Source: Verrucomicrobium spinosum DSM 4136 = JCM 18804 (GTDB taxonomy: Bacteria > Verrucomicrobiota > Verrucomicrobiia > Verrucomicrobiales > Verrucomicrobiaceae). From it: 64,000 bases of DNA. The notes under the pieces are model-generated. The model had not been told where the DNA came from and did not search any database. It was given only the letters and a program-made list of their open reading frames with translations. This document shows, piece by piece, positions 17,900-25,921 of the stretch. Position 1 is the first letter of the stretch, and every line of letters begins with the position of its first letter. Both the position numbers and the translations under genes were made by a program. The stretch covers positions 3,505,105 to 3,569,104 of the forward strand of contig NZ_ABIZ01000001.1 of the NCBI RefSeq assembly GCF_000172155.1, given 5' to 3'.

Positions 17900-19471
17900 T
17901 CAGCCCCCAGCCGGGCCTTTACCCGGTTTTTGGGTGCCGGGTGCCTTGGTCGAGCCCAGGTCCTTGGCCCGGTCTGGGCTCATGGCCTCCAAGTCCGCTG
18001 GGGTGGGGCCACCGCCGAATTGCTTCCAGTAGAGTTCTTTAAAGGGGTTTAGGGCAGGCAGCGGGGCGTTTTCGTTGATCATCTGGGGTCTGACGGACTG
18101 CCACCAGGCGTCGTAGGCTCCCGCCAGCTCCTGCACCACTTCCGGCTTCTCCCTCGCCAAGTTTCTCTCCTGGGCGGGATCGGTCTCCACATCAAACAAC
18201 TGCCAGGAGGGGGCTGTTGGGCTGGCTGGCTTCCCGGCGCTCACCAACGTGTAGGAGCCCCGTCGCACGGCACAGTTCTGGTACTTGCTGGTTTCAGGAT
18301 CGGCCCGGAACGGCCAACGCCCCACGTGGGTGACGAGAGTGCGCTCCGCCCATGGGGCGTCAGGCTTTTCCAGAAGGGGCAGGAGACTACGTCCCTCCAC
18401 TTGAGCTGTGACCTCGGACGTCGGGTGAACTCCCGCCAGAGCCGCCAGGGTGGGGAAGAAGTCCAAATGCGCGGTGAGCGCGTGGCAGTCGGCGGGAGCC
18501 AGTGTCCCAGGCCAGCTCCAGAAGGCGATCGCCCGGGTACCACCCAGCCAAGGGGTGCCTTTGGTGCCACGCATGCCTGCGTTGAACACCTTTGTACCTG
18601 CTGTCCCGCCGTTGTCGTTCATGAAAATGACGAGTGTGTTGTTCGCCAGGCCCCAGTCACTTAGTCGTTGCCGGAGCTGCCCCACATTTTGATCGATGTT
18701 GTGGATCATCCCAAAGAAATTCGCCACGTCCTCGCTGGGGGTCTTGTCCCGATAGAGGGCCGCGTCTTCCGGCTTGGCCACATAGGGGCCATGTGGGGCA
18801 TTCGTGGCAATCCAGCACAGGAACGGAGTGCCGCTCTGGCGCTGGCCTTCGATCCATCGGGTGGCTTGGGTGAAAAACACATCCGTGCAATAACCCTTCG
18901 TCTTCTCGAACTGCCCGTTGTGGAGGATGGCGGGGTTGAAGTAGGTGTTTCCTGGCGCATCACCGCAACTGCCGGGGTAAGTCTGGCCAATGCCGCCTGC
19001 TCCATGAATGAAGGTTTCGTCGAAGCCCCGGCGGTCCGGGCGATGGTCTGGCTCGTCGCCCAGATGCCACTTGCCAAAGATGCCGGTGCGGTAGCCAGCT
19101 CCTTTCATCACCTCGGCCAAGGTACGGGCGTCCGGCGTGAGCCGCTCCCGTTCCAGAATGGTGTGCGTGATTCCATTCCGAAACTCGTGACGACCGGTGA
19201 GCAGGGCGGAGCGGGTGGGGGCGCAAGTGGGGCTGTTGTGCCAGTCGGTGAATCGCAGACTCTGGGCATGAAGGTCATCGAGATGCGGTGTCTTCAGCAC
19301 GGGGTTGCCATGCACGGAGAGATCGCCATAGCCCTGATCATCCGTGAGGATGAACACGATGTTGGGACGTTTGCCCTCCAGCGAGGCGGCAGGGACGGCG
19401 GTGGCAAAAACAAGGTATCCGGCCACGGTGACGGTGAGGGATGCGGATGCGATCAAGAACCGGAGAGACAT
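17900..19471 (-). CDS. Secreted sulfatase
   Basis: A 523-residue sulfatase with a signal peptide ending near VPAAS. PNIVFILTDDQGYGD gives the metal aspartates at 44-45; the active-site motif CAPTRSALLTGR starts at Cys83, predicted to become formylglycine. GIFGKWHLGD, NAPHGPY and FMNDNGGTAGT complete the alkaline-phosphatase-like metal and sulfate site. The GYGDLSVHGNP and RYGKWHLGD patterns place it with the large arylsulfatase A-like group typical of Planctomycetes and Verrucomicrobia. The C-terminal 20 residues are rich in Pro/Gly/Lys. Substrate unknown; location upstream of sialic-acid genes suggests sulfated glycans, an inference. Confidence 0.92.
   Translation of the reverse strand: MSLRFLIASASLTVTVAGYLVFATAVPAASLEGKRPNIVFILTDDQGYGDLSVHGNPVLKTPHLDDLHAQSLRFTDWHNSPTCAPTRSALLTGRHEFRNGITHTILERERLTPDARTLAEVMKGAGYRTGIFGKWHLGDEPDHRPDRRGFDETFIHGAGGIGQTYPGSCGDAPGNTYFNPAILHNGQFEKTKGYCTDVFFTQATRWIEGQRQSGTPFLCWIATNAPHGPYVAKPEDAALYRDKTPSEDVANFFGMIHNIDQNVGQLRQRLSDWGLANNTLVIFMNDNGGTAGTKVFNAGMRGTKGTPWLGGTRAIAFWSWPGTLAPADCHALTAHLDFFPTLAALAGVHPTSEVTAQVEGRSLLPLLEKPDAPWAERTLVTHVGRWPFRADPETSKYQNCAVRRGSYTLVSAGKPASPTAPSWQLFDVETDPAQERNLAREKPEVVQELAGAYDAWWQSVRPQMINENAPLPALNPFKELYWKQFGGGPTPADLEAMSPDRAKDLGSTKAPGTQKPGKGPAGG
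17911..17931 (+). terminator. Intrinsic terminator for the MBL-fold gene
   Basis: CCGGG (17911-17915) and CCCGG (17922-17926) form a short hairpin followed directly by five T residues. It sits 25 bases after the MBL-fold gene stop and inside the 3' end of the convergent sulfatase gene, whose C-terminal codons it therefore shares. Confidence 0.55.
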
Positions 19472-19507
19472 GCGTGGGCGTGTGAACGCGATACCCGCCG
19501 ATTTCTG

Positions 19508-19630
19508 TCACCGTCTTTTCATTGCCCGAACCGTTGTCCAGTTGGGAAGCCGCTCCAGTTCCATGCCTGGGTAGCCGCAGCCGCCAAGATTCCGCGCATG
19601 GATGTGGAGAAGCTTGATCCGATATTGGCC
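19508..19630 (-). pseudogene. Decayed copy of a sialidase C-terminus
   Basis: Read on the minus strand, this stretch encodes GQYRIKLLH, then CGYPGMELE and LPNWTTVRAMK before a TGA. The same order occurs inside the neighbouring giant gene as GQYRIKLLH, CGYPGVELL and LPDGTVVATTYVK (about 22,150-22,240). DNA is also similar: GTGGAGAAGCTTGATCCG against GTGGAGGAGTTTGATCCG. A stop lies just upstream in frame and no start is available, so it is a fragment. It lies about 50 bases past the end of the giant gene on the same strand. Confidence 0.75.
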
Positions 19631-19681
19631 CGGACCTGATCAGCCCCTAAGCGAGAAGGGCGAGATAAGGCTTCACCGTGG

Positions 19682-22600
19682 TCATGGAAGGGTGGTGAAC
19701 AATTCCTGCAGCACTGCGCCACGCGTGGCTCCAACCTCTGGCGAGGCCTGGCTTTCGGCAGCGCGAACCCGTTTCGCGAGTTCCATGGGCTGCAGCTTTC
19801 CGGCACGCAACGCCATCATGCCATTGTCCCAGGCCTGCTGAACCGCCTCTGTCAGCGGTTGGTCGAGGCGCACATTGTAGTCGGCGAAGAAGCCCTTCGT
19901 GCCGAAGTACTGCGCGGCGGCGATGGCAGGATGATCGGCGGTAACCTCCACATCATTGAAGAAGCTGATCATCATCCGGTTCACAACGAGTTTGCGGATC
20001 ACGGCTTCGGGATCGAGTTGTCCTGGAGTTGTCTGTCCTTTGACCGCCAGCGCCGCGGCGAATCCGGCACTCTCTCCGAGCTGCATCCAGACCGGCTCCA
20101 GGCGGATGCTGCCCCAGCCGACGTGCGATGCGCTGATGGCGACGGGCACGAGCAGGTTTTCAACTTCCCTCGAAAGGATTGAGCGATAGGGCACTTGGGC
20201 GGGGCGCGATTCTTCGCCGAGAAATAGGATGCCGTCGGTGTTGCCGCCGGGAATGCGGCGCGGCAGGCAGGCGACGGAATCCACCGGCCAGTCAGTGATG
20301 GCGATGCTGTCCGCATGAACCGGTGTACGGGCAATGCCTTCGGCAATGACGTTGTCCTGCTCCTTGAAGACGTATCGCCCGACGAGCCGGCGTGCTTCTC
20401 GCACGTAGATTTCATACGGTGCGTGGTTGTTGTCGGGGAATTCATCCGCCGCGAGGCCATAACCGGCGAACTGCTTGCGCTCCTTTTCCGGCGCTTCGGG
20501 ATCGTTCTGCATCCACCACAGGCGCATGAGCATGCTTTCGAGATAGCGTCTCGATATTTCTTCACGCTTCGGCCACTCGGCGGCAGGATAGTCGTTTTGC
20601 GGGCCGATGAGGCGGCCGCCGTTCCACGCGACTTTGCCATTCGGCAGGTTTGGCACAAAACCACCGCCGCCCGCGGCCTTGGCGATGCTCGCATCGTAGT
20701 TTGCGGGCTTCTCGACCATGATCTTGTTCGCGGGATCACGCGTGAGGACCAGACGGTAGTTATAGGACATTACGGAACCATCGGCCTCACCGCTATGCGG
20801 CCCTTCGAGGATGTCCGCGGTGGCGTGGCTGTTGTAGCGGATGTTGAGCGTGCCTTCATCAGCGGCCTTTGGGAAGCCGCGCTGGCCGGGCTCCTTGTGA
20901 CGTTCCTGCGTGTAGATCACCCCCGCGTGCTTCTCGCCGTACTGAGCACGCGACTCGCGGCCGATCTGCGTCTTCACACCTGCGGCCGCCATGAGGTCTC
21001 CCTCATACATGCCGTCAGCGAACACTTTGCCAATGACAGTTATGGTGTTGTCGCCATGCATTGGCTTCAATGTGACGGACTTGATCAATGCACCATCGCG
21101 CTCTGCCTTCGTGACGACGTGGCCCAGCAGCACGGTCAATGACTTCTCGCTCCCGACCATCTTGTTGAATAGCATCTCCGCAATGCGCGGCTCAACTTTT
21201 GGGCGGTCGATGTGCGCACGACTCGTCTTGCTGGGCATGGAGGCAACGTGCTGCGGCGAGCCTTCACCGTAGTTCTTGCGATAATAATTTGCCGCGCCTT
21301 CGAGCATTTCCGCGTAGAGCGGCGCGCGCTGGCCGTCATAGGGGGCCTCCCATCCGCCTGCGCCACTGGTGACAAAGCCGCCGAGATGCTGCGTGTGATT
21401 CACGAGCAACACGTTCAAGCCCTCACGCGCCGCGCGCACCGCACATGCGATGCCGCCTGGAGTACCGCCGATGACGACAAGATCGTAGGACTTTCCGTTC
21501 ACGTCGGACGGTTTTGCCGCGCCCTCCAGCAGCATCGGCGGCGGAATTTTCACCGGCACTGCCGACGAGCTGCTCTGCATAGGGAAGCCCGCACTCGAGC
21601 GAGTGTTGCGCTCCTTTGCCGCTTCGGGCTCAAGCACGAGCTGCAGGGCGTCCACGACCACAAAGCCATCCGCATTTGCATTGGAAATTTCGATCGTGCC
21701 GGCCTTCCCTTTGGCGAAGGCAAAGGTGCCCAGCGCCCGCGGGATGCCGTCTTCAAAGCAAGCCTCGCGCTGGTTCAGGACAACCGTCTTTTCGCCCTCC
21801 ATGGCGCGAATGGTGATGGTGACGTTGCTCGCACGGTTGCTTGCCGGCACATAAAGGAGCCGCAGTTCGTAGCGGCCCGCCTCCGGGATCGACGGCGTGA
21901 ACTTCGCCGTCGCGAGCTCTTTCTTGCCCCTGTCGTCAACGCGATACGAGGAGCCGACGAGGGGTGCCAGCTTCTCTCTGACCTTCCACATCCCCGTAAA
22001 CTCTGCTTCCTCATCATCGAGCAGGATGCCAGCCGTCTTGCGGTCGGCTGGAGCCGCCGCCGTCGTTTTCGGCATTTTGTCCGTTTCTTCGAGCTTGAAG
22101 CGCACGCTTACCACGGAGTGCTGCTCTGGACCTTCGCGGTACTTGACGTAAGTGGTTGCCACCACGGTGCCGTCTGGCAGGAGCTCCACACCAGGGTAGC
22201 CGCAGTCGCTGCCCTTGTAGCTGTGGAGGAGTTTGATCCGGTACTGGCCGTCTCTACCGGAGGTGATGTCATCGTACCGTCCCACCCATGCGACAAAGTG
22301 GGTGCGGGTGGCGCTGCCTGGGCCGGTGTCACGAAAGCACACCACCATGCGCCCATCAGCCACCGTGCGGATCATGTGGCGGTCCCCGTTCAGGCCGGGA
22401 GGTGTGGGTTTGGGGGCGGACCAGGTGCGGCCCTCGTCCTCGCTGGTCATGTAGAGGGAAATGTGTTTCACGTTCTCCCGCATGAGGCAGAGCAGTTGTT
22501 TCCCATCCGGCGAGCGCACCACGGCAGGTTCGCAGGGTTTGAGGGGGCCCAGGTCGAGGAGCGTGCGCCACGGGCTCCAAGTGAGGCCGCCATCGGTGGA

Positions 22601-25600
22601 CTCGCTCTGGGTGATGATGTTGGAGGTCTTGTCCTGCGTCTCACCGGGGCGACGGGTGTTGGAGAGACCGATAAGTTTCCTGCCGCCTTCCACCGGGACG
22701 ATGGTGCAGAAGGGCATCACCGTCAGCAGGCCGTTGGAGGTCATTGGGGTCCAGGTCTTGCCCTCATCTGTGGAGAAGGATTGCTGCATGGTCTTGTCCG
22801 GACCTTGTCCGGCGAAGACAAAGAGGCGGGTGTTTCCCTGGGGATCGGTGAGGCGGTAGAGGCTGGGGCAGTTGCGTACGTCCTTCCAGTTCTCTGGGAC
22901 GGGCAGGAGCTCGCTCCAGGTCTTGCCACCATCATCGCTTCGCTTCATGGGGCCGCAGCCGCCGCCGTGACCATAGGTCCACACGGCGTACATCGTCTTG
23001 CCGTCTGGCAGCAGCGTGGTGGTGGGGTGCCCCTGATAGACTTCCGGCGTGCCTTGCGCCACCACGACCTGACGGGACGTGTCGGAGGAGAGATCCACAG
23101 TCGGTAGCTTGGTCGCCACTGGTCTCGTGGCCTTGTCTCCTTTGGCAATCCAGTCCAGCGTGAACTTCGCAAGCGTGAGCCGTTTGTCCCGCTCATAGAA
23201 GCAGAGACCGGTGCCATCGGGCAGCACTGCCAGGTCGGAGTAGGCGCTCCGGCCCGGTTCGAGAGTTCGACCGACTTTCCAGGTCTTGCCATCGTCCAGA
23301 CTGAGCTTCAGGGAGAGATTGACCCGATCACCCCGGCCGCCGGGGACTTCCTGGGCGCGCTCGTCCAGTTTCAAGCTGTGGGGATTCGAGAACACCAGTG
23401 CACCGGGCTTCTTGGGGAAGGCGATGATGCTGCCCATGCAGATGGGCTCCCAGAGCGATTCCTCGAACTTGGGTGTGGTCCACCCCGTGGCCCCGTCGGC
23501 ACTGGTGGTGACCAGCCGACGGCTCTTGAGCGAGGTGCTGCGGGCGTTGAGCATGACGCGACCGTCGCTGAGCTGGACCGCCGCAGTCTCGTTGGGGTTT
23601 TTGAAATCGCCTTCGTTGGGCAGAGCGATGTCACCGGCCTGCCACGTGGCACCCTGATCATCGCTGTAGATCGTGCCCGTCACGGAGGGGCCGTGATCGC
23701 CCTCCTTGCCGTAGGCCAGCCACACGGGGATGACAAGGCGGCCATTCTGAAGCTGGATGCCATGTCCCGGTCCGGTGGCCAGCACCTTCCAGTCGCACTT
23801 GGGCCGGAAACCTTCGAAGGCCGCCGTGATCTCCACGGGAGCGGTGAAGGTTAAACCGTCGTCTTCACTGCGCATGTAGAAGCAGCGCTTGTAGTTCAGG
23901 CAGTACAGGAAGTGAATGGCTCCGGTCTTGGCATCCACGATGGCCACCGGATTGTTCACCGTCTGTTCCTTCTCGCCGCCTTCTTTCTTGTGCGGGTTGC
24001 CCTCGTCGCGAGCCCCTAGGTGGGCAACGTGCTGGGCGGGAGAGAAGGTCCTGCCGCCATCGGTGCTTCGGCGCAGATGCACCTCAATCTCGCCCCAGTC
24101 TGCTGCACTGGTGCGGCGGGCCTCGCAATACGCCAGCACCGTACCCTTCGGAGTGACCACGATGCCAGGGATGCGGTAGAGGGAGACGCCATTCTCTCCG
24201 CCGACGAAGAGATCCGTCTTCTCCACCTCGTTTGCTGCCGGTGCCGCGGGGGCGGGATCCTTCCAGTCATCGGTGCGGAAGGGGGAGGCGGGCAGGCCGA
24301 CGCCATTCACGAGATTGCCTGTAGGATTCCCTGCCCAGGCGTAGCGGACCGCCACAGGCTGGGGAACTTCGGGGTTGGAAACTACCACGGTACGGCCTGC
24401 GATCGTCGCGGTGGCGGATTTCCACTGGCGGTCGGCACCGGCAATCAGAAAGTCCCGGAGGGGGCCGTCTTTGGCCTTTAGCCCTTGGTCGGCATGATTG
24501 AAGGTGACCGTCACCTTGCCGCCCTCGATCTTGTGCTCCGCTGGCAGGGGACCGGAGTAGGAGGGCAGCTTCTGGTGGTACACCCGGTCCAGTGCCCAGA
24601 GGGCGAGACGGTTGCCCACCGCAGCCTTGTTGCGGGGGTGGTTGTCATTGGCTTCACCCACATCCACGGTGATGGCCATGCCGGTGTTGTTGACCGAGAG
24701 AGACTTCAGCATGGCTTCTCTCACGATAGGGCGAAAGTCCTTGCGATCCAGATTGGGCAACTGAACCCAGGCAAAGGGCAGTTCCTGGCCCCAGCGGGCC
24801 CGCCAGTCCTGCACCAGGAGGGGCAGCTGTTTTTCATAGAGCCGGGCTTTCTCCTCGGTGGAGGTGTTGTGCTCTCCCTGATACCAGATGACTCCACGGA
24901 TGCCATAGGGCAGCAGAGGAGAGATCATACCGTTGTACAGGTTGGCAGGATGGTTTTGGTCAGTGGAGGGTTGGGTCGGTTCCTGGGGCTTGCGGGGTGG
25001 GGGATTGCCCGCCGCCCTGGCCTGCTGCACTCGCGTCTTCCACGTCCCCAGCGCTTTTTCGTAGGATGCCTTTGCCTCATCCGGCTTGAAAGCCGCATCT
25101 TCCGCTTTCCAACGTTCCACCTGAGCCTTCAATTCGGGGATCTTCACCTGGGCATCTTCACTGGTCCAGGAGGCGATGTCTGTGCCACCCCAAGAGGAGT
25201 TGATCATGCCCACAGGTGTCTGGAGCTTGTCCAGCAAATCCCGGGCAAAGAAGTACGCCACGGCGGAGAAGTTGCCCACGGTTTCAGGAGTACACACTGC
25301 CCAAGAGCCTTCGCATTCAGCCTTGGGCTCGCGGCTGGACTGTTTGGAGACCGTAAAGAAGCGCAGCGTGGGGCGGTTGGCGGCAGCGGATTCTTCAGGC
25401 GGATACTGACCGCGGCTGAAGAGGTAGGCCATGTTGGACTGCCCGGATGCCAGCCAGACTTCTCCCACGAGCACATCTTGAATGGTCGCGGTGGGTGAGT
25501 TGCTTCCTTTGACCGTGAGGGTCTGTGGTTTGTCACTGGGCTCCAGGGGTGGAAGAGTCACCTTCCACTTTCCGGCAGCACCGGTCCTGGTGGATTGAGT

Positions 25601-25795
25601 TTGCCCCGCCACCGTGACGGTGACCTCCTCCCCCGGCGTGGCCCAACCCCAGACCGGAGCAGATTGGCCGGACTGGAGCACCATGTGATCTGAGAAGATC
25701 GCTGGTAGCCGGAGTTCAGCGGCGTGAAGCCACGAGCCACCCAGCAGGGTGGCGGCGATGCCCGGGAGAAGTTTGAGGAGCGTGCGGCGGATCAT
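19682..25795 (-). CDS. Giant multidomain sialate O-acetylesterase / double sialidase / FAD-dependent oxidoreductase
   Basis: A single uninterrupted 2037-residue frame with a signal peptide (MIRRTLLKLLPG, ending near LHAAEL). Domains in order: SGNH-type sialate O-acetylesterase (about 25-505; SGQSNM with Ser120, WYQGE, candidate His386); sialidase propeller 1 (about 524-900; YRIP with Arg541, Asp boxes STDGGRTF, SEDDGLTF, SDDQGATW, SLDDGKTW); second propeller (about 912-1237; SDDGGKTW, STDEGKTW, STDGGLTW, SEDEGRTW); golvesin/xanthan-lyase-like beta domain (about 1263-1386; WKV...SSYRVDDRGK); FAD-dependent oxidoreductase (about 1436-2037; DLVVIGGTPGGIACAVRAAREG). The first parts would deacetylate and release sialic acids outside the cell. 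An FAD enzyme on the same chain is unusual; a frameshift-free gene fusion is the likely origin. Confidence 0.87.
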   Translation of the reverse strand: MIRRTLLKLLPGIAATLLGGSWLHAAELRLPAIFSDHMVLQSGQSAPVWGWATPGEEVTVTVAGQTQSTRTGAAGKWKVTLPPLEPSDKPQTLTVKGSNSPTATIQDVLVGEVWLASGQSNMAYLFSRGQYPPEESAAANRPTLRFFTVSKQSSREPKAECEGSWAVCTPETVGNFSAVAYFFARDLLDKLQTPVGMINSSWGGTDIASWTSEDAQVKIPELKAQVERWKAEDAAFKPDEAKASYEKALGTWKTRVQQARAAGNPPPRKPQEPTQPSTDQNHPANLYNGMISPLLPYGIRGVIWYQGEHNTSTEEKARLYEKQLPLLVQDWRARWGQELPFAWVQLPNLDRKDFRPIVREAMLKSLSVNNTGMAITVDVGEANDNHPRNKAAVGNRLALWALDRVYHQKLPSYSGPLPAEHKIEGGKVTVTFNHADQGLKAKDGPLRDFLIAGADRQWKSATATIAGRTVVVSNPEVPQPVAVRYAWAGNPTGNLVNGVGLPASPFRTDDWKDPAPAAPAANEVEKTDLFVGGENGVSLYRIPGIVVTPKGTVLAYCEARRTSAADWGEIEVHLRRSTDGGRTFSPAQHVAHLGARDEGNPHKKEGGEKEQTVNNPVAIVDAKTGAIHFLYCLNYKRCFYMRSEDDGLTFTAPVEITAAFEGFRPKCDWKVLATGPGHGIQLQNGRLVIPVWLAYGKEGDHGPSVTGTIYSDDQGATWQAGDIALPNEGDFKNPNETAAVQLSDGRVMLNARSTSLKSRRLVTTSADGATGWTTPKFEESLWEPICMGSIIAFPKKPGALVFSNPHSLKLDERAQEVPGGRGDRVNLSLKLSLDDGKTWKVGRTLEPGRSAYSDLAVLPDGTGLCFYERDKRLTLAKFTLDWIAKGDKATRPVATKLPTVDLSSDTSRQVVVAQGTPEVYQGHPTTTLLPDGKTMYAVWTYGHGGGCGPMKRSDDGGKTWSELLPVPENWKDVRNCPSLYRLTDPQGNTRLFVFAGQGPDKTMQQSFSTDEGKTWTPMTSNGLLTVMPFCTIVPVEGGRKLIGLSNTRRPGETQDKTSNIITQSESTDGGLTWSPWRTLLDLGPLKPCEPAVVRSPDGKQLLCLMRENVKHISLYMTSEDEGRTWSAPKPTPPGLNGDRHMIRTVADGRMVVCFRDTGPGSATRTHFVAWVGRYDDITSGRDGQYRIKLLHSYKGSDCGYPGVELLPDGTVVATTYVKYREGPEQHSVVSVRFKLEETDKMPKTTAAAPADRKTAGILLDDEEAEFTGMWKVREKLAPLVGSSYRVDDRGKKELATAKFTPSIPEAGRYELRLLYVPASNRASNVTITIRAMEGEKTVVLNQREACFEDGIPRALGTFAFAKGKAGTIEISNANADGFVVVDALQLVLEPEAAKERNTRSSAGFPMQSSSSAVPVKIPPPMLLEGAAKPSDVNGKSYDLVVIGGTPGGIACAVRAAREGLNVLLVNHTQHLGGFVTSGAGGWEAPYDGQRAPLYAEMLEGAANYYRKNYGEGSPQHVASMPSKTSRAHIDRPKVEPRIAEMLFNKMVGSEKSLTVLLGHVVTKAERDGALIKSVTLKPMHGDNTITVIGKVFADGMYEGDLMAAAGVKTQIGRESRAQYGEKHAGVIYTQERHKEPGQRGFPKAADEGTLNIRYNSHATADILEGPHSGEADGSVMSYNYRLVLTRDPANKIMVEKPANYDASIAKAAGGGGFVPNLPNGKVAWNGGRLIGPQNDYPAAEWPKREEISRRYLESMLMRLWWMQNDPEAPEKERKQFAGYGLAADEFPDNNHAPYEIYVREARRLVGRYVFKEQDNVIAEGIARTPVHADSIAITDWPVDSVACLPRRIPGGNTDGILFLGEESRPAQVPYRSILSREVENLLVPVAISASHVGWGSIRLEPVWMQLGESAGFAAALAVKGQTTPGQLDPEAVIRKLVVNRMMISFFNDVEVTADHPAIAAAQYFGTKGFFADYNVRLDQPLTEAVQQAWDNGMMALRAGKLQPMELAKRVRAAESQASPEVGATRGAVLQELFTTLP

Positions 25796-25921
25796 GCTGT
25801 GCAGGGTGAGGGGTTGAAGCGCGATCCCGGTAACGCGCTCCAACACGGCGAAATAGCGCAAAACGTGCTTCGCAGACTGGAGAAATGATTTGACCAGTGA
25901 GCCGACGGTGGCCCGGGAAGT

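Follow-up and report, generated by a model that had tools for sequence, protein, structure and literature searches.

The window considered here is a stretch of 64,000 nucleotides from the Verrucomicrobium spinosum genome (8,220,857 bases in a single contig). It contains a giant gene with Pfam matches to SASA acetylesterase, BNR_2, the golvesin C-terminal domain and FAD_oxidored, in which two sialidase-like stretches (SIA1 and SIA2) were distinguished by comparison with relatives, and, next downstream, a sulfatase gene. Between the two, just past the stop codon of the giant gene, a further sialidase-like gene, separate from it and designated SIA2p, has left two scraps (Table 1); "sialidase" is used throughout as a family label. 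A frame of 12 codons persists at the start of this relic, its ATG overlapping the TGA of the giant gene as ATGA.

Table 1. Features of the window around the SIA2p relic.
Feature	Position in window	Strand	Basis or remark
Giant gene, 2059 aa: SASA acetylesterase-like, SIA1, SIA2, golvesin C-terminal domain, FAD_oxidored	19682..25861	(-)	Pfam and module map
SIA2, giant-gene module with a tail like the relic (giant-gene residues about 912-1245 cover 22,127-23,128)	22067..23128	(-)	Window alignment, module map
SIA2p relic, two scraps	19,556-19,681	(-)	Past the stop of the giant gene
Remaining SIA2p start, 12-codon frame (MTTVKPYLALLA, stop)	19647..19685	(-)	Aligned with the SIA2p start of BvORR106
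Relic start piece, past the giant gene's stop	19636..19681	(-)	Ungapped alignment; 36/46 bases as in BvORR106
Relic 3' piece (GPGQYRIKLLH.HARN.G.CGYPGMEL)	19556..19635	(-)	71/80 bases as in BvORR106
38 bases, origin uncertain; may be a heavily degraded extension of the relic	19518..19555	(-)	Weak protein-level match
Stretch upstream of the sulfatase gene, common to BvORR034	19472..19517	(-)	46-bp alignment
Sulfatase gene, next downstream	17900..19471	(-)	Pfam Sulfatase 1.4e-52

A search of the window against itself returned the SIA2 tail of the giant gene as the best match to positions 19,472-19,681 outside that segment, and the nucleotide alignment of the relic with this tail is significant (52/74 identities, a single gap of 6 bases; E = 2e-4 for a search of the window; local score 43, the maximum over 500 shuffles being 32). 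A homologue search of 57 genomes, including that of the window and complemented by a module map of the fetched stretches, located the giant gene in two congeners, Verrucomicrobium sp. BvORR106 (G003) and BvORR034 (G001). In BvORR106 a whole SIA2p of 384 residues (L038:4745-5899) is encoded immediately behind the giant gene, in the same orientation; its longest frame begins within the end of that gene, and another ATG, further in, forms an ATGA overlap with the giant stop. The syntenic place of the relic is thus occupied in a sister genome by an intact homologue, which marks the window's copy as a pseudogene remnant.

The relic aligns with this intact gene over 80 bp at 88.75% identity (E = 5e-23; score 115, shuffle maximum 32), and the two genomes share two collinear blocks, window 19,636-25,477 corresponding without a gap to L038 5832-11673 and window 19,556-19,635 to L038 4865-4944. 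The relic therefore consists of the start of SIA2p and a portion of its 3' region; the start is included since 19,636-19,681 aligns gap-free to the start region of the sister gene. Moreover, the BvORR106 protein, when compared with the whole genome of the window, recovers the relic unprompted (74% over residues 317-354, E = 1.3e-10). Positions 19,556-19,681 are therefore the remnant of a separate BNR_2 gene that followed the giant gene. The first-pass annotation had described a decayed sialidase C-terminus just beyond the stop of the giant gene and in its orientation, with thirty to forty codons matching the sialidase tail inside that gene, and had pointed to sister species as the place where tandem sialidase genes might be seen. 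The decayed gene, the similarity to the SIA2 tail and the tandem (SIA2 with a whole SIA2p in BvORR106) are all borne out, and so is the C-terminal part, to which the start piece at 19,636-19,681 has to be added.

Two simpler origins for the scraps lose their footing on the same evidence. Chance similarity, in whose favour nothing but the short length speaks, has a vanishingly small probability in view of an E value of 5e-23 at the syntenic place of a sister genome. A C-terminal fragment of SIA2 duplicated and copied downstream of the giant gene would explain why the relic matches the SIA2 tail of the same gene; it is very hard to credit, given that the relic agrees with the sister SIA2p at 71/80 bases and with its own SIA2 at only 52/74 with a gap, and that it carries both the SIA2p-type HARN.G insertion and a SIA2p start piece.

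As for the state of the relic, 887 bases of SIA2p are absent between the two scraps (breakpoint 19,635/19,636), and the last 120 bases of the gene are missing or unrecognisable in the window. The disabling changes comprise this internal deletion, a TAG after 12 codons and the lost or unrecognisable 3' end. In BvORR106 the segment absent from the window is flanked on either side by TCAGCC, and TCAG stands at the join in the window, a pattern that fits an internal loss by illegitimate recombination at these short direct repeats. Among the motifs by which the relic had first been recognised, GQYRIKLLH, CGYPG and EL hold, while the final "LP" falls in 19,518-19,555, where no DNA-level match to SIA2p was found and where the protein-level resemblance is weak (seven residues, LPNWTTV against LPDGTIV, after a two-residue insertion, with a score reached by 107 of 5000 shuffles); the protein alignment from the whole-genome search extends to 19,523. 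Between the window and BvORR106, 232 of 1008 fourfold sites of the giant gene differ, the corresponding differences in the relic pieces being 9/80 and 10/46.

The relic most likely does nothing now. The residual sequence could instead have been kept for a purpose, for example because the frame of 12 codons is translated by coupling or because the stretch spaces the giant gene from the sulfatase gene, and the persistence of the ATGA overlap together with the 12-codon frame would fit such a role. This is quite improbable, since BvORR034 has neither an ATG at the giant stop nor such a frame, and the start piece shows 10 differences in 46 bases.

The intact SIA2p of BvORR106 matches PF13088 (BNR_2, 1.7e-18) and PF02012 (Asp-box, 6.3e-9); its matches to sialidases in the PDB are weak (best E 1.2e-6), and an NCBIfam search returned no family for it, the giant gene and the sulfatase having only matches below the cutoff. 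It is 65.5-72.1% identical (tblastn) to 19 standalone BNR_2 proteins of the same bacterial family. In 18 contexts of such standalone genes (16 other-genus genomes, BvORR034 and the genus member G002, two of the contexts being on contigs shorter than 9 kb) no close copy of the giant-gene modules was found adjacent; in each of four of the loci a golvesin, sulfatase or GDSL query gave a single weak hit (25-37%). The gene of BvORR106 thus resembles the standalone proteins, within whose half of the tree it falls, and differs from them in its position: an intact SIA2p adjoins the giant gene in BvORR106 alone, while the window, and probably BvORR034 too, has a relic there.

In a tree of 46 rows, the fused SIA2 modules (17 rows) are separated from the standalone proteins plus the BvORR106 SIA2p (29 rows) by long branches with 100/100 support. 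The tree left out three hits shorter than 300 residues (L083, L058 and L100), and sequences with no difference across the alignment were represented by a single row. A warning about meeting long branches was issued by the tool, and SIA2p was placed to the standalone half as a whole. The tandem genes are accordingly not each other's closest relatives, and SIA2p and SIA2 are not copies of one gene, because they fall on opposite sides of the 100/100 branch. The view in the first-pass annotation that the golvesin-FAD module is bracketed by two copies of the same sialidase end does not survive this result, as the two ends belong to different subfamilies.

The distribution of the fusion bears on its origin in turn. 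SIA2, golvesin and FAD modules are fused in one open frame at 12/12 fetched other-genus loci, which were chosen among the best matches of the 57-genome search; outside these, in at least ten further genomes of the family, the SIA2 match falls within a long open frame (1054-1377 aa). In the 2.9-9.7 kb downstream of the 12 fusions, no close homologue of SIA2 or SIA2p was found, the matches to either being limited to four of the 12 loci, at 27-35% identity and at least 3.8 kb away; the other downstream matches were SIA1-like (26-27%), SASA (45-49%), FAD (42-48%), sulfatase (25-35%) and GNAT (28%). Since the other-genus fusions have no adjacent SIA2p, the fusion exists without the tandem, which is known here from this genus only.

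It had been proposed that the giant fusion was born when two sialidase genes, tandem copies of each other, recombined, and that the stub is the remainder of the second. The shared strand and order, the likeness of the tails in DNA and a real recombination patch between the tandem genes of BvORR106 (described below) all speak for this proposal. It remains most unlikely in view of the separate subfamilies, of the 12/12 other-genus fusions without a close downstream SIA2 or SIA2p homologue, and of BvORR106 itself, which carries the complete fusion and a complete SIA2p side by side. Chance similarity, a duplicated SIA2 fragment and a tandem-recombination origin of the fusion were all rejected.

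What does stand of the proposed recombination is a local exchange between the tandem tails. In BvORR106, SIA2 and SIA2p are 60.1% identical overall and share a 65-bp patch near their 3' ends in which 64/65 bases are identical, a level reached by 0/3000 codon permutations; the window's SIA2 shows the same patch when compared with the BvORR106 SIA2p (2 mismatches in 61 bases). The relic stops short of this patch. Five genomes in which both paralogue loci were fetched and in which the two lie apart (G027, G034, G024, G012 and G001) served as controls, and no significant stretch was found in any of the five, the best one in each being reached by 382 to 1599 of 5000 permutations. The nearest control, G034, has 86 bases at 82.6% in the same region (382/5000 permutations), which indicates that the tails, GQYRIKLLH, CGYPG and EL among them, are alike in part through ordinary conservation. 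The patch motif REGPEQ occurs in 4/17 fused SIA2 rows (window, BvORR106, G004 and G014) and, the BvORR106 SIA2p apart, in 0/28 standalone rows, so that the direction of transfer was likely from SIA2 to SIA2p. From this pattern, the patch is likely a gene conversion from the fused SIA2 into SIA2p.

The genus is represented by three usable members (V. spinosum, BvORR106 and BvORR034); in a fourth, G002 (76% complete), a 4.4-kb contig that lacks the giant gene ends in a partial SIA2p. In BvORR034 the giant stop is followed by about 130 bases and then by the sulfatase gene, and the stretch immediately before that gene is shared with the window (L010 4164-5366 aligned with window 19517-18309). Within the gap, a 48-bp piece matches the middle of SIA2p in the sense direction with a score of 41, which 0/1000 shuffles reach, the antisense score being 22. 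The same score was reached by 5/3000 random chunks of 1156 bases taken from other fetched loci, in a pool that left out six loci holding the giant gene or SIA2p of G001 or G003; three of the five chunks came from L119 (a copy of the very BvORR034 contig that holds the gap) and two from L120 (a copy of the BvORR106 contig), at positions spanning SIA2p. At the protein level the signal of this short piece is weak (score 49, the best of 2000 shuffles being 47). SIA2p was probably lost twice, because the spot in BvORR034 holds only a different, 48-bp piece; BvORR034 probably lost the gene separately, by other deletions. A whole SIA2p-type gene is present elsewhere in the BvORR034 genome. The order giant gene, SIA2p, sulfatase gene is complete in no genome seen, because the sulfatase of BvORR106 is on a separate contig, with a different neighbour gene. 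Beyond SIA2p, near the contig end of BvORR106, a frame of 779 residues (L038:1193-3532) runs on the opposite strand; by eye it appears Rhs-like, and it might mark a rearrangement point between SIA2p and the sulfatase gene.

Other genera combine the giant-gene modules in other ways. SIA2 occurs without golvesin-FAD in G004 and G014 and probably in G022 (a 401-aa frame). In G004 and G014 (L023 and L024), which belong to another genus, a SASA-SASA-SIA2 fusion ends after SIA2 and a separate SIA1 gene lies upstream. The giant gene of BvORR106 is longer (2552 aa, L038:5878-13536), with two SASA modules in tandem; BvORR034 has two SASA modules as well, and the window one. A Kiritimatiellae metagenome-assembled genome (L121) matches residues 516-1125 of the 1142-residue query, its golvesin-to-FAD end, at 67% identity, no match to the sialidase part of the query being reported there. 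A literature search for golvesin together with sialidase found no paper, and V. spinosum is named in one supplementary list, that of sequences failing the first selection criterion (PMC4930215).

Within the genus, the SIA2 module itself appears displaced. The FAD modules of the three congeners group together with 100/100 support and the golvesin modules with 91/94 (not starred), whereas the SIA2 of BvORR034 (L010 607-1632) groups with other genera and not with those of the window and BvORR106. Forcing the SIA2 modules of the three congeners together made the tree 34 log units worse (p-AU 0.0037), a value that is optimistic because the group was named after seeing the tree. According to identities computed in successive segments, the difference lies mainly in residues 1112-1191 of the giant gene, where the window lineage is divergent. 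SIA2p was considered as the donor of these residues and is no clear one: at 1112-1151 its similarity to the window somewhat exceeds its similarity to most other SIA2 modules, and at 1152-1191 it falls below it. The conversion patch in the lineage of the window and BvORR106, together with the displaced SIA2 module between congeners, has prompted a tentative and rather doubtful reading in which an operon of secreted glycan-degrading genes was fused successively and the direct repeats of sialidase tail flanking golvesin-FAD keep recombining, changing the module content.

The explanation that best accommodates the evidence at the locus, to which we assign a probability of about 94%, starts from a common ancestor of the window's species and BvORR106 in which a whole SIA2p would have stood between the giant gene and the sulfatase gene. 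This ancestral gene would have been translationally coupled to the giant gene, within an operon of secreted glycan-degrading functions, and before any loss its tail would have been overwritten by that of SIA2 through gene conversion. In the lineage of the window the gene would then have been reduced by the internal deletion, while in BvORR034 the same gene would have disappeared independently, through other deletions.

Pseudogene remnants that an internal deletion leaves of a paralogue next door form a general category. The relic is an ordinary member of it, for which the evidence from a sister genome is unusually clear and to which a small gene-conversion tract is added. It is like such remnants in general in that its two scraps are collinear with an intact gene at the corresponding position in a sister, and in that it stops prematurely and its 3' end is lost or unrecognisable. 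It differs from them in that its neighbour is a diverged paralogue and no recent duplicate, and in that the gene was probably lost independently in a second sister, BvORR034.

The three congeners thus display three states in the loss of one gene, which is whole in one, reduced to two scraps in another and probably to one other scrap in the third. The case also illustrates that a short tail match can correctly flag a lost gene and yet mislead on the origin of the neighbouring fusion. The loss of SIA2p took place beside a growing multidomain fusion and is otherwise ordinary genome decay.
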